A stretch of DNA of 64,000 nucleotides from Roseivirga sp. GTDB taxonomy: Bacteria > Bacteroidota > Bacteroidia > Cytophagales > Cyclobacteriaceae. The notes under the pieces were generated by a model, which did not search any database, was not told the origin of the DNA, and saw nothing but the letters and a program-made list of their open reading frames with translations. The position numbers and the translations under genes are program-made. Location of the stretch: positions 1,024,001-1,088,000 of the forward strand of contig JAGYIY010000001.1 in NCBI GenBank assembly GCA_018402485.1. Reading direction: 5' to 3'. Below, piece after piece: positions 15,903 to 21,102 of this stretch. Each line of letters begins with the position of its first letter. Position 1 is the stretch's first letter.

Positions 15903-17372
15903 TTATGAAGGATGCATGAGCTCATCCATAACTTTAGCAGATGATAGGCAAAGGGGAATGCCTCCTCCCGGATGAACACTACCCCCACAAAAGAACAAAT
16001 CCTCGATAAATCTTGATTGATTCGGATGTCTTAAAAAAGCAGCAAACTTATTATTCGAACTGTTTCCGTACAAGGCGCCTTGAGAAGAGCTTGTTTTTTG
16101 TTCAATACCTCTGGGGTCAAGTACATCTTCCTCTACAATCAATGCAGAAATGTCTTCACCCAAGGCATGAGAAAGCCTATCGAGTATTATGTTTTTCGCC
16201 TTAGGAATTAAATGATCCCAATCTAAGGAGGTATCAGAAGGCACGTTAATCATGGTAAACCAATTCTGACAGCCTTTAGGGGCATCTTTAGCATTATGAA
16301 CAGCACTTATGTTTACATAAACCGTAGGGTCAATGGGTAAGGTTTTACTTTTAAAAATATGTTTAAACTCTGTTTTGTAATCTTCGCTAAAAAATATATT
16401 ATGTAAACCCAGTGTTTTAAATTCTTTTTGAATACCCCAATAAAAAATCAATGCAGAACTAGATTTTTCTTGCTCGATTAGCTTTTTAGGCTGTTTTTGG
16501 TTTTTGAGTAATTTACCATAGGCAGCACTCATGTCCATGTTACATACTACTTTCTGCATGGGGTGAAAGCCCTTGGATGTTTCTATGCCTATGGCCTTTT
16601 CTTTTTCTACAATAATTTTTGTTACTGGCTGTTCAAAATTGAACTGAACCCCAACCTCAAGCGCCAATTGGTATAAAGCTTGGGTAATGGATTCCATTCC
16701 ACCACATGGGAAAAAGGCACCTTTTCCAAACTCAAGATGAGGAATCATGTTCAGCGTGGAGGGGGTTTGGTAAGGGTCAGAACCATTATAAGTGGCATAC
16801 CGGTCGAAAAGCTGAACAGTTTTCAGGTTTTGAAAAGTGCTTTTATTTGCTGCGTGCATGGATTGGTTGAAGCCAAACTTGTGCAATTTTCCATAGGCCC
16901 GAAAGGCAGCCTTACTCAACCAAGTACTTTTTTTATGCAAACTTTTTTCAATAAAAAGGGGGGCTAGGTGTTCATACTTGAAAGCACTTGCCTCCAAAAA
17001 TACCTGAACATGCTCCCATGGTTCATGTAATTTTGATTCAAATTCTTTTTGCAATTTAGACCGATTCGACCAAGCGGTAAACTGTGTTCCATCGGGATAA
17101 AAATACCGGCAGCTCTCATCGAGCTTTTCATAAGAAAAATAAGAAGATATATCGACATTGGATAGCTCAAAGAGCTCTTCGACCAAATGAGGAAGGGTGA
17201 ACAATGACGGCCCTGCATCAAAGCGATAAGCACCTAACCGAAAAGAGGTTAGCTTACCACCTGGATAGGAGTTAGCTTCAAAAACAGAAACGACATGACC
17301 TCGATTGGCTAAACGTATGGCCGCAGCCATACCACCAATACCCGCACCAATCACGGCTACATTTATAGGCAT
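15903..17372 (-). CDS. CrtI/CrtD-type carotenoid desaturase-like FAD oxidoreductase
   Basis: A 489-residue flavoprotein. The N-terminal dinucleotide-binding motif is GAGIGGMAAAIRLANRG (residues 9-25), followed by EANSYPGGKLTS. The C-terminus has FFCGGSVHPGGGIPLC, the signature region of phytoene-desaturase relatives such as CrtI, CrtD and CrtN. It probably introduces double bonds into a carotenoid or related polyene pigment. No other carotenoid gene is near. It is the last gene behind the kynurenine genes (56 nt after kmo), so it may be carried on that transcript. Which desaturase subtype it is cannot be decided here. Confidence 0.8.
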   Translation of the reverse strand: MPINVAVIGAGIGGMAAAIRLANRGHVVSVFEANSYPGGKLTSFRLGAYRFDAGPSLFTLPHLVEELFELSNVDISSYFSYEKLDESCRYFYPDGTQFTAWSNRSKLQKEFESKLHEPWEHVQVFLEASAFKYEHLAPLFIEKSLHKKSTWLSKAAFRAYGKLHKFGFNQSMHAANKSTFQNLKTVQLFDRYATYNGSDPYQTPSTLNMIPHLEFGKGAFFPCGGMESITQALYQLALEVGVQFNFEQPVTKIIVEKEKAIGIETSKGFHPMQKVVCNMDMSAAYGKLLKNQKQPKKLIEQEKSSSALIFYWGIQKEFKTLGLHNIFFSEDYKTEFKHIFKSKTLPIDPTVYVNISAVHNAKDAPKGCQNWFTMINVPSDTSLDWDHLIPKAKNIILDRLSHALGEDISALIVEEDVLDPRGIEQKTSSSQGALYGNSSNNKFAAFLRHPNQSRFIEDLFFCGGSVHPGGGIPLCLSSAKVMDELMHPS

Positions 17373-17428: not shown

Positions 17429-18763
17429 CTAGTCCAATGCCGCAATAATTTCTTTCAAATCAATGCTTTTCCATGCGGTTTCGATACCTGGAATATTCAG
17501 CACTTCATCCATGATGGCTTGCTGTTTTTTAGCAATGGCTAAAGCCTCTGAATACCTGTAATCACTGAAAGTTACAAGTGTATATAAAGGTATCCATTGC
17601 TTAGGATATTCTTTATGCAGTCGCTGTTCCAATTTTTTTTGAAGTATGAAAAGTGGATCTGTTACTTTATCACGCATTTCAATGAAATTATACAAGGCTA
17701 AATCAGAAATCGCATCTGCATCAACCTTCCTTTCTTCTTGGAAGGCATGAAGCACCTTTTTACTTAGCCCACAATTTTCTTCAATCAAACGATCAAGTAC
17801 AAAACAGTCTTCAAAACCGGCATTCATACCTTGACCGTAGAAGGGTACAATTGCGTGGGCAGCATCACCAATCAATAGAGAATGATTTTGAACGTATGGG
17901 AAGCATTTGACTGTAATTAAGGACGAGGTCGGGTGATTTTTAAAGTCTGCAAGCAGGTTGGGCATATGTTGTTTGGCATCAGAGAAATGTTCCTCAAAAA
18001 AGGAATTAACCTCTTTATCTGTTTGAAGTGAGTCAAATGAAATTTTTCCTTCAAAGGGCAAGAAAAGCGTACAAGTAAAGGATTTATCTACATTAGGTAA
18101 AGCAATAAGCATAAACTCTTGCCGAGGCCAAATGTGTAAAGCATTAGGGTCGAGAGCAAACTCCCCTTTAGGTGTAGGCGGCATGCTGAGTTCTTTGTAG
18201 CCGCTTGAAATATACTGCTGTGAAAAATTAAAGCGAGGCGCACGCATGTAAGCTTTTCTTAAGGCGCTAAAAGCACCATCAGCTCCAAAAATAAAAGAAG
18301 CCTGATGGCTTAAGGTTTTGCCTTGATGGGTAAAATAGGCTTCATTCTTCTCGGTTTCTACTTTTCCGCAGAAATGTTCAAAGTGAAAAAATACACCCGC
18401 TTGCTCTGCAGCATCCATAAGAAGACAGTTCAATTCCAACCTAGCGATCGAATTGATTTGTTGCCCTGTTTTGCCATAAGGCTGAAAATCTTCTTTTTCA
18501 TCAATGGTATGCACCATTCTACCGGGCATAGGAATGCAATGCGATATTACCTTTGGCATAAGCCCCACCTTTTCTAAAGCTTTTAACCCTCTTCTACTAA
18601 GTGCTAAATTGATAGACCTTCCTTCTTCCTTTTTGTCTAACCTTAAGTCTGTCCGTTTTTCAAATACATGTACGTTATAACCTCTTTTGACAAGGAATAA
18701 TGCTAATAAAGAGCCTACTAAACCCGCTCCAAGGATGATGATTTTATTTTCGGATGAATTCAT
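17429..18763 (-). CDS. kmo: Kynurenine 3-monooxygenase
   Basis: A 444-residue FAD-dependent hydroxylase converting L-kynurenine to 3-hydroxykynurenine with NADPH and oxygen. It shows GAGLVGSLLALFLVKRG (residues 12-28), the family-specific EEGRSINLALSRRG, SIARLELNCLLMD, and the second FAD motif GDAAHAIVPFYGQGMNAG. The C-terminal helix expected in mitochondrial forms is reduced. It follows kynU after 9 nt on the minus strand, so it is in the same operon, directly before kynureninase in the reaction order. Confidence 0.95.
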   Translation of the reverse strand: MNSSENKIIILGAGLVGSLLALFLVKRGYNVHVFEKRTDLRLDKKEEGRSINLALSRRGLKALEKVGLMPKVISHCIPMPGRMVHTIDEKEDFQPYGKTGQQINSIARLELNCLLMDAAEQAGVFFHFEHFCGKVETEKNEAYFTHQGKTLSHQASFIFGADGAFSALRKAYMRAPRFNFSQQYISSGYKELSMPPTPKGEFALDPNALHIWPRQEFMLIALPNVDKSFTCTLFLPFEGKISFDSLQTDKEVNSFFEEHFSDAKQHMPNLLADFKNHPTSSLITVKCFPYVQNHSLLIGDAAHAIVPFYGQGMNAGFEDCFVLDRLIEENCGLSKKVLHAFQEERKVDADAISDLALYNFIEMRDKVTDPLFILQKKLEQRLHKEYPKQWIPLYTLVTFSDYRYSEALAIAKKQQAIMDEVLNIPGIETAWKSIDLKEIIAALD

Positions 18764-18772
18764 GCGATGAGC

Positions 18773-20053
18773 TTAACCCTGTTGTTTTATGGCTTCGGAT
18801 AATATCTGTCCAAATTGATAAACGTCTTCGAAAGAATTGTACAATGGTGCAGGAGCAATTCGAATGACATTAGGTTCTCGCCAATCACCAATGACGCCAT
18901 TGGCAATCAGATGATCAAATAAAGATTTACCATTTTTGTGAAAAAAGATCGATAATTGTGCTCCTCTTTGCGAGGGATCAGAAGGTGTAATGATTTCGAA
19001 TAAACCTCTATCACCGCTGAGTTCTTGAATAATGAATTCTAAATAACCTGTAAGTTGTAAACTTTTTTCTCTTATTGCTGGCATTCCGACCTCATCGAAT
19101 ATTTCTAAAGAAGCGAGATGAGCTGCTGTAGAAATTATATTGCCATTACTGAGTTGCCATCCATCTGCACCAGGCATGGGTTGAAAGCCTTTTTTCATTA
19201 AAAACCTTTCTTTTTCATTATGCCCCCACCATCCGGCAAACCTAGGAAGGCTATCGTTATGGGCATGTCTCTCGTGTACAAAAATACCACTGACATTTCC
19301 CGGACCTGAGTTGAGGTATTTGTAAGAACACCAAGTAGCAAAATCAACATCCCAGTCGTGGAGCTGAACAGGTACATTACCAGCGGCATGGGCTAAATCA
19401 AAACCAACATAAGCCCCCACTTTGTGTCCGGCTTGTGTTATGGATTCCATGTCGAACCACTGACCCGTATAGTATTGTACCCCTCCAAAAAGAACAAGGG
19501 TAAGCTCTTTTCCATGCTTTTCAATGGTTTCGATAATGTCTTCTGTGCGTAGGGTATTCTCACCGTCTCTAGGAGCTACTTCAATTAGCGCCTCTTCGGG
19601 GTCTAAACCATGAAATTTAAATTGTGATTCAAACATATATTGATCTGATGGAAAAGCACCTGCTTCGCAAATGATTTTAAACCTTTGAGCAGTAGGTTGA
19701 TAAAATGACACCATCAATAAATGGAGGTTCACAGTCAAATTATTCATGGCTACTACCTCGAGTGGGAGTGCTCCTAACACACCTGCCAAACTTGGCTTAC
19801 TGGCTTCATGAAACTTGAGCCATGGGTTCTTTTTGGGTAAAAAATGACCTTCAACAGCAAATTCTTCCCACTTTTGCATTTCCTCTTCCACATAAACGCG
19901 AGCTCGTTTCGGTTGTAGACCTAAAGAATTCCCTGTGAAATAAAGGGCATTTGCACCCTTGTGTTGCGGAAAATAAAATTCCTTACGCCACCCATGGAGA
20001 GGATCAGCCTCATCTAAAGTTTGAGCAAAAGAAAGTGTGTTTTGATACTTCAT
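18773..20053 (-). CDS. kynU: Kynureninase
   Basis: PLP enzyme that hydrolyses 3-hydroxykynurenine (or kynurenine) to 3-hydroxyanthranilate (or anthranilate) and alanine. About 426 residues from the ATG at 20053. Family markers are YFTGNSLGLQPK, GFDLAHAAGNVP (Asp219, His222) and the PLP lysine Lys245 in CSYKYLNSG. The frame extends upstream to 20131, but the extra 26 residues are not family-like. The ATG at 20053 overlaps the stop of the alkyltransferase-like gene as ATGA, which implies translational coupling. Confidence 0.95.
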   Translation of the reverse strand: MKYQNTLSFAQTLDEADPLHGWRKEFYFPQHKGANALYFTGNSLGLQPKRARVYVEEEMQKWEEFAVEGHFLPKKNPWLKFHEASKPSLAGVLGALPLEVVAMNNLTVNLHLLMVSFYQPTAQRFKIICEAGAFPSDQYMFESQFKFHGLDPEEALIEVAPRDGENTLRTEDIIETIEKHGKELTLVLFGGVQYYTGQWFDMESITQAGHKVGAYVGFDLAHAAGNVPVQLHDWDVDFATWCSYKYLNSGPGNVSGIFVHERHAHNDSLPRFAGWWGHNEKERFLMKKGFQPMPGADGWQLSNGNIISTAAHLASLEIFDEVGMPAIREKSLQLTGYLEFIIQELSGDRGLFEIITPSDPSQRGAQLSIFFHKNGKSLFDHLIANGVIGDWREPNVIRIAPAPLYNSFEDVYQFGQILSEAIKQQG

Positions 20054-20547
20054 TTGAATAAATTTAGTCGATTTGCGCCTGGGATATAATGTGCATGGTT
20101 GAGTAACCGTTCTTTTTTCACTATTCCCCAAGCAAAGCCTGATAAACTTCCCTTACTTCCGATAACGGGGTGGAAAGGTATTAAAATTGCCAAAGGATTT
20201 TTGACGTTTGCCAGATCTGTGCCTCTCATTTTTTCAACATCTCCCATCTTTTTGGTCACTTCTGAATAAGCAAAAGTTTTTTTGGAAGGGATTTGTTGCA
20301 GATGTGTACAAACATTTTTTTTAAAATGGATGTAAACCGAATCTAAACCCAATTTAATTTCTGGCTGTTTACCTGCAAAATATGCTTGAATTCGATACGT
20401 ACATGCAAGCACAATTGGACGAAATTCCCCATGGGTTAAGCATGTCAGATACTTCGTAAAAGTAACCCATCGGATGGCCTCAGCATCACCAATGATTTTT
20501 AGTCTTCTCATTGGGGTGTATAAAAAACGTGTTGCGGCATTTTTCAC
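20050..20547 (-). CDS. Alkyltransferase-like protein (MGMT/Ogt homologue lacking the acceptor cysteine)
   Basis: A 165-residue protein clearly related to O6-alkylguanine-DNA alkyltransferases. It has QAYFAGK, then QIPSKKTFAYSEVTKKMG (Tyr94 matches the DNA-phosphate-rotating Tyr of human MGMT), MRGTDLANVKNPLAIL (Arg108 matches the arginine finger), and SLSGFAWGIVKKERLLNHA. The active-site PCHRV is replaced by PFHPV (Phe125, His126, Pro127), so alkyl transfer to Cys is impossible. Known cysteine-less homologues (ATL proteins) bind alkylated DNA and recruit nucleotide excision repair. The N-terminal part is divergent. It lies between haaO and kynU, sharing ATGA with kynU. Met13 is an alternative start. 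Confidence 0.82.
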   Translation of the reverse strand: MKNAATRFLYTPMRRLKIIGDAEAIRWVTFTKYLTCLTHGEFRPIVLACTYRIQAYFAGKQPEIKLGLDSVYIHFKKNVCTHLQQIPSKKTFAYSEVTKKMGDVEKMRGTDLANVKNPLAILIPFHPVIGSKGSLSGFAWGIVKKERLLNHAHYIPGANRLNLFK

Positions 20548-20571
20548 AAAAAATAGATTGGGTGATTGTTT

Positions 20572-21102
20572 TTATTCAGTATAGCGTGGGTCCGACGATG
20601 TAACGTGTCCACAATTCGAACATGTTCTTAATGTTTCAGAAGCATAGAAATGTTTAAAACGAGGCAAAAAGTCCTTTTCAATATTTTTTAATGGAAAGTA
20701 AGTTTCATGTAGTTTGTGATTACAGTTTTCGCAATACCATAAAAGCCCGTCTTTGTGTTGAGCTTGTCTTACTCGTTCAATTACCAGACCCACAGAGCCT
20801 TCTGAACGAATAGGAGAATGAGGCACTTTTGGCGGGTGCAAATACATATCTCCAGGCCCTAGGGCCATATCGACCGCTTTACCATTCTCCTGAATTCTGA
20901 TGGTGACATGGCCTTTAATTTGATAAAAGAGTTCTTCCGTTTCATTGTAATGAAAATCCTTCCGGGCATTCGGACCGGCTACAATCATTACAATATAGTC
21001 GCTACCTTCCGGATAAAGATTTTTATTCCCTACAGGTGGCTGAAGTAAATCCCTGTTATCATCAATCCATTTCAGTAAATTAAAGGGCCTTTTTATGTTC
21101 AT
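20572..21102 (-). CDS. haaO: 3-hydroxyanthranilate 3,4-dioxygenase
   Basis: A 176-residue cupin dioxygenase that opens the ring of 3-hydroxyanthranilate, giving the precursor of quinolinate (NAD synthesis) or of further degradation. Iron ligands are His51, Glu57 (in HYNETEE) and His95 (in PPKVPHSP). The C-terminal rubredoxin-like metal site has CENC (Cys124, Cys127) and CSNC (Cys161, Cys164), the bacterial form of the family. First gene of the minus-strand operon; a palindrome overlaps its likely -7 element. Tryptophan dioxygenase and formamidase are not in the window. Confidence 0.95.
   Translation of the reverse strand: MNIKRPFNLLKWIDDNRDLLQPPVGNKNLYPEGSDYIVMIVAGPNARKDFHYNETEELFYQIKGHVTIRIQENGKAVDMALGPGDMYLHPPKVPHSPIRSEGSVGLVIERVRQAQHKDGLLWYCENCNHKLHETYFPLKNIEKDFLPRFKHFYASETLRTCSNCGHVTSSDPRYTE

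Follow-up and report, generated by a model that had tools for sequence, protein, structure and literature searches.

Repair of O6-alkylguanine in DNA by alkyltransferases of the Ogt/AGT type (TIGR00589, PF01035) involves an acceptor cysteine that lies in a PCHR(V/I) motif and belongs to the Cys-His-Glu catalytic network of AGT, as described in PMC10779285. Alkyltransferase-like proteins (ATLs) are described in the same paper as having no N-terminal domain and mostly a Trp at the acceptor position, while the structural features of DNA binding are kept. Replacement of the acceptor Cys by Phe is represented by laboratory mutants that mimic the alkylated protein, namely C119F of the thermostable AGT SsOGT and C145F of human AGT. 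According to PMC4605297, the C119F change drops the Tm of SsOGT from 80 to about 45 C and slightly reduces its affinity for dsDNA, and the Cys-to-Phe form of human AGT is very unstable in E. coli.

Translational coupling between neighbouring genes has been studied in E. coli and Haloferax, where, according to PMC10666635, it occurs only if the two genes overlap slightly or lie almost next to each other, and is reduced or abolished by premature stops in the upstream gene. For three E. coli pairs, the same paper reports that premature stops leaving a 38-base gap cut reinitiation by at least 80%.

The locus described here lies in the window, which is the whole 64,000-nucleotide stretch of a Roseivirga genome that was analysed (host assembly 2.57 Mb, completeness 84.6%). 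Its features are as follows.

20572..21102, minus strand: haaO, 3-hydroxyanthranilate 3,4-dioxygenase (NF009763 and TIGR03037 passed)
20548..20571, minus strand: haaO-ogt junction of 24 bases, with the ACMSD gene missing relative to 18/18 congeners
20050..20547, minus strand: ogt, a Cys-less Ogt orthologue with the motif PFHPV, 165 aa, GTG to TGA (open frame, PF01035 and TIGR00589, congener alignment)
20050..20053, minus strand: ATGA, the 4-base overlap of the ogt stop and the kynU start (junction read in the sequence)
18773..20053, minus strand: kynU, kynureninase (TIGR01814 passed; highly conserved, with changes at 4 of 200 invariant sites)
17429..18763, minus strand: kmo, kynurenine 3-monooxygenase (match to solved kynurenine 3-monooxygenases)
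15903-17372, same strand as kmo: CrtD, carotenoid desaturase (NF042421 over cut-off)

The genes haaO, ogt, kynU and kmo follow one another in this order, all four on the minus strand, and the identities of haaO and kynU rest on equivalog models. The ogt frame comprises 165 codons from its GTG with no internal stop, and its product scores above the cut-offs of both AGT-domain models, with 63.5 bits against PF01035 (cut-off 27) and 63.6 bits against TIGR00589 (cut-off 46.4). Its acceptor motif IPFHPVIG is encoded ATA CCT TTC CAC CCC GTT ATC GGA. The first-pass annotation had thus rightly described an Ogt/MGMT relative between haaO and kynU with PFHPV for PCHRV, including the TTC and CCC codons at the two changed positions; it had also placed the gene in a kynurenine operon, tied to kynU by the shared ATGA, and both of these features are confirmed and old, being found in 18/18 congeners. 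The CrtD gene lies 56 bases beyond kmo, and the same neighbour occurs in one congener locus (L049).

Each of the 18 congeneric species available for comparison has an ogt orthologue with 37-45% identity to the one described here, at the same operon place and with the PCHR motif, within the order haaO, ACMSD, ogt, kynU; kmo follows further along in 17 of them, and in the 18th (L042) the contig ends inside kynU. The stop-start overlap of ogt and kynU is likewise present in all 18, with a length of 4 bases in eight, 1 base in nine and 11 bases in one. Judged by operon position and alignment, ogt is therefore an orthologue of the canonical Ogt that is seated in the kynurenine operon throughout the genus. 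When the conservation proposed by the first-pass annotation was checked in these related genomes, the position between haaO and kynU stood in 18/18 (with ACMSD added), and the motif did not, since a search of the genus found PFHPV in none of the 18 congeners. A search of genome contigs with the protein found no close PFHPV relative, and gave one distant match, in a Mycobacteriales MAG, with 30% identity and PCHRV. Close relatives with an intact protein at this place had been named beforehand as a sign of a decaying Ogt gene and not of a functional ATL, and the PCHR proteins of the 18 congeners are such relatives.

The association with kynU extends beyond the genus. Of the 196 family genomes, at least 33, counting the present one, have an ogt gene on the same strand as kynU and no more than about 330 bases upstream of it, and they represent at least 12 of the 84 genera sampled; these counts, made by comparing coordinate lists by eye and with locus L074 added, are lower bounds. 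All 27 kynU-linked ogt genes that were read outside the genus (11 other genera) keep PCHR, and among the 46 linked genes read, loss of the Cys is confined to this genome. Because PCHR Ogt proteins occur at this place in 18/18 congeners and 27/27 genes outside the genus, the operon position is old. The linked loci (L058, L071, L074, L075, L077, L079, L082 and L095-L114, in addition to the congener loci L040-L057) often have the arrangement haaO-(ACMSD)-ogt-kynU. In L074, from genome G186, the ogt before kynU is broken at its N-terminus, with 114 codons open and PCHRVV kept. A literature search gave no report of linkage between ogt and a kynurenine operon among the matches listed; PMC3974807 lists both kinds of gene within a deletion in Pseudomonas, separated by about 30 kb.

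The lineage has also lost the gene upstream of ogt. An ACMSD gene lies between haaO and ogt in 18/18 congeners, where 1062-1546 bases separate the haaO stop from the ogt match, and it is missing here, which the first-pass annotation had not mentioned; its identity comes in one congener from a match to solved 2-amino-3-carboxymuconate-6-semialdehyde decarboxylases, and in the other 17 from ORF position and a similar sequence start. ACMSD was not found elsewhere in this genome by a protein search run without a control genome on the 84.6% complete assembly. From the known pathway, loss of ACMSD would direct the pathway product to quinolinate. Nine of the 18 congeners (L040, L041, L042, L044, L047, L050, L054, L055 and L057) have a small ORF of 119-128 codons between haaO and ACMSD, at an ORF limit of 100 codons; its product presumably resembles four-helix-bundle proteins.

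Relative to canonical Ogt, the protein encoded here has replaced the acceptor Cys, the motif Arg and the activating Glu. Of the Cys-His-Glu network only His126 is retained, the other two members being changed by C125F and E152A, and the genus-invariant residues altered further include R127P, W80C, W147R, G72Y, T73I and G89K, such that W80C and W147R together remove both invariant Trp. In the helix that directly follows the Arg finger, three residues invariant in the genus are substituted (A109G, V110T, G111D). Residues Y94, R108, N114, N117, P124 and H126 are retained, in agreement with the earlier reading of Tyr94 and Arg108. Because the Cys, the motif Arg and the activating Glu are gone, the DNA repair activity of the ogt product has almost certainly been lost, given the known mechanism of AGT. 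The change at the acceptor position is identical to that of SsOGT C119F and human AGT C145F, but ogt carries many changes beyond those of the laboratory mutants. Sequencing error was ruled out as the source of the motif change, as 29 invariant sites are altered across the gene and the frame is intact.

The pace of change in this lineage was compared among four genes of the operon, using sites that are invariant in the genus (18 congeners for OGT and HAAO, 17 each for KYNU and KMO). At such sites, 29 of 67 are changed here in OGT, against 11 of 109 in HAAO, 4 of 200 in KYNU and 18 of 194 in KMO, with Fisher P values for OGT of 6e-7, 3e-16 and 5e-9, respectively, and leave-one-out maxima among congeners of 5/72 for OGT, 5/114 for HAAO, 6/206 for KYNU and 12/206 for KMO. 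The terminal branch takes up 41% of the OGT tree, 20% of the HAAO tree, 11% of the KYNU tree and 19% of the KMO tree. OGT leads the four by a wide margin, with HAAO and KMO somewhat accelerated as well.

A dN/dS comparison, which had been suggested as a check, gave OGT an omega of 0.31 for this branch, against 0.021 in the rest of the tree (2dlnL 14.2). Together with the length of the branch, this relaxed selection is what is expected of a pseudogene, within a custom-built codon model in which silent sites are saturated, several fits have branch lengths at the upper bound of 40, and the underlying tree has weakly supported nodes, one of them with 21% support. Setting omega to 1 on the branch costs a 2dlnL of 2.5 for OGT, against 49 for HAAO, 80 for KYNU and 55 for KMO, each relative to its own branch model. 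A codon model with two site classes nevertheless rejects neutrality over the whole OGT branch (2dlnL 13.4), and its fits are similar for constraint followed by neutrality (-5562.9) and for general relaxation (-5562.4). The neutral part of the branch was put at 0.83-0.94 substitutions per codon by a two-phase model, with a profile of about 0.7-1.2 when the total branch was fixed.

Despite this rate, the alignment with congeners has no stop, frameshift or deletion in ogt and 0 gaps in 165 columns. Simulation of 0.83 neutral substitutions per codon, with all sites treated as equally mutable, gave a mean of 5.0-7.3 stops from four starting sequences and a probability of no stop of 0.0005-0.01, with indels uncounted; this probability rises to 1.6-4.9% at 0.5 substitutions per codon and to 6.5-16% at 0.3. 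Because no stop or indel is present where some 5-7 stops would be expected, ogt does not appear to be a plain pseudogene. The protein itself was compared with a neutral missense simulation in which stops were forbidden. Core-like columns are hydrophobic in 45 of 51 cases, where 41-42 would be expected (P 0.09-0.17 with 0.83 substitutions per codon and 0.02-0.07 with 0.95), and the net charge is +15, compared with +3 to +7 (P 0.015-0.06 with 0.83). These values hint weakly at selection on the product, and neither core hydrophobicity nor charge clearly rejects neutral missense drift. Since drift without stops explains the protein passably, the case for selection is stronger for the frame than for the protein, and within the limits of the models selection on the ogt reading frame is well supported.

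Collectively, these observations are best explained, at a probability of roughly 0.53, by a dead Ogt whose frame is preserved because its translation, as a leader, is coupled to that of kynU. The lineage has lost the upstream ACMSD gene, and the alkyltransferase its Cys, motif Arg and activating Glu. Ribosomes finishing ogt would re-initiate on kynU at the overlapping ATGA, so that the coupling would be broken by a premature stop or a frameshift in ogt but would survive missense changes, and the ORF would serve as a translated leader of kynU with a product of little importance. The frame would thus have stayed open because termination at ogt feeds re-initiation on a kynU that is needed. The short overlap, with its ATGA, TAATG or TGATG junction conserved in the genus, is of the type found in coupled gene pairs; the difference from described pairs is that the upstream partner here is apparently inactive, and coupling is read from the junction.

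A need for kynU is suggested by the absence of nadA. No nadA was detected in the 19 genomes of the genus (G000-G018), with 12 of 14 controls positive. For nadB the picture is less clear: it was over the cut-off in 0/19 genomes of the genus, where the controls were positive in only 5 of 14 and sub-threshold matches occurred in 19/19; in most genomes such weak matches lie in frames of about 600-690 codons and are probably succinate dehydrogenase. The genome described here has a nadC match and a partial tryptophan dioxygenase match. With nadA missing, the kynurenine route probably supplies quinolinate for NAD in the genus, and kynU may feed NAD synthesis. If kynU is needed for NAD, its coupling to ogt would have selective value, and maintenance of the frame by ogt-kynU coupling is the most likely explanation. 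Several points weaken the translated-leader explanation: a shorter ORF would also suffice, as the last 15 bases of an upstream gene are enough for coupling according to PMC10666635; HAAO and KMO share the somewhat raised rate of this lineage; core hydrophobicity and charge hint weakly at selection on the product; the nadB result has a weak control; and the argument from the frame depends on the codon model and on the neutral divergence fitted with it.

An alternative, possible but doubtful, is that the AGT fold has been retained for a new role, such as DNA binding without repair, regulation or partnership with kynureninase. The structure prediction that had been proposed was carried out, and the AlphaFold2 model of the ogt product has a two-domain AGT fold (pLDDT 75.4, pTM 0.70) that matches human AGT-DNA complexes with TMq 0.69-0.79, the highest value, 0.79, being to 1yfh_B. 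The input was a 14-row alignment in which all other rows are intact relatives, and the model indicates compatibility of the sequence with the AGT fold while being silent on stability, DNA binding and function. A new role would also agree with the open frame, the net charge, the rejection of neutrality over the whole branch and the retention of Tyr94, Arg108 and Asn117, and the Phe by itself could be compatible with binding, given that dsDNA is still bound by SsOGT C119F (PMC4605297). The instability of Cys-to-Phe mutants of both SsOGT and human AGT speaks against it, as do the three substitutions in the helix after Arg108 and the remaining changes, which strike polar and core sites broadly. 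A more elaborate version, in which an Ogt frozen by Phe in its spent alkylated shape and made more basic would be made at a fixed ratio to kynureninase and assist NAD synthesis by regulation or by binding nucleic acid, with O6-alkylguanine repair and the kynurenine route functionally linked across the family and the ogt-kynU linkage as a trace, is improbable.

Plain decay, in which an inactivated ogt has so far avoided a stop or indel by luck, is unlikely. The first-pass annotation had named decay as the competing explanation, and that part of it stands which concerns the lost catalytic residues and the relaxed selection. Loss of ACMSD, the size and completeness of the assembly and the existence of another family genome (G186, L074) whose ogt in this operon position is broken at the N-terminus are further points in its favour, but a recent decaying Ogt is an incomplete account of a frame that has neither a gap nor the stops predicted by simulation.

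The proposal that the product is a functional ATL, which binds O6-alkylguanine and passes it to excision repair, did not survive comparison with known ATLs and is very improbable. As in S. pombe Atl1 (3gva), the V. parahaemolyticus protein (2kif) and E. coli ATL, an AGT-related C-terminal domain lacks the acceptor Cys and keeps the Tyr and the Arg finger, and DNA binding by SsOGT C119F would also be in accord with it. Against it stand several differences: ogt arose here from a PCHR Ogt and is the fastest gene of the four; it has Phe and not the usual Trp; its Arg finger is followed by RGTD, whereas RxVG is kept at this point in 3gva, 2kif and the genome's own ATL (L001); it retains the N-terminal domain, as judged from the full-length alignment with congener Ogt and the predicted N-terminal strands and helix; and ATL structures align to the predicted model over 80-83 columns only, about half its length (TMq 0.41-0.44). 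The genome moreover already encodes that separate short ATL, with the motif PAHRVVN and S. pombe Atl1 as its best solved match, and an inactive human AGT, C145A, is reported to sensitise E. coli. Because PF01035 detects only ogt and the short ATL, no Cys-bearing alkyltransferase was found in this genome, of which about 15% may be missing.

The gene at 20050-20547, which automatic annotation would label a repair enzyme, would on its sequence be an Ogt that died in this lineage alone while occupying a long-established place in the operon; its loss of activity is near certain. If the translated-leader explanation is true, it would be a natural case of selection keeping a frame open while the protein goes, by way of translational coupling to an important neighbour. 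The old linkage of ogt to the kynurenine genes is the more interesting by-product of the analysis. At least 12 of the 84 genera sampled place an intact ogt immediately before kynU, which offers a testable link of alkylation repair with kynurenine and NAD metabolism.
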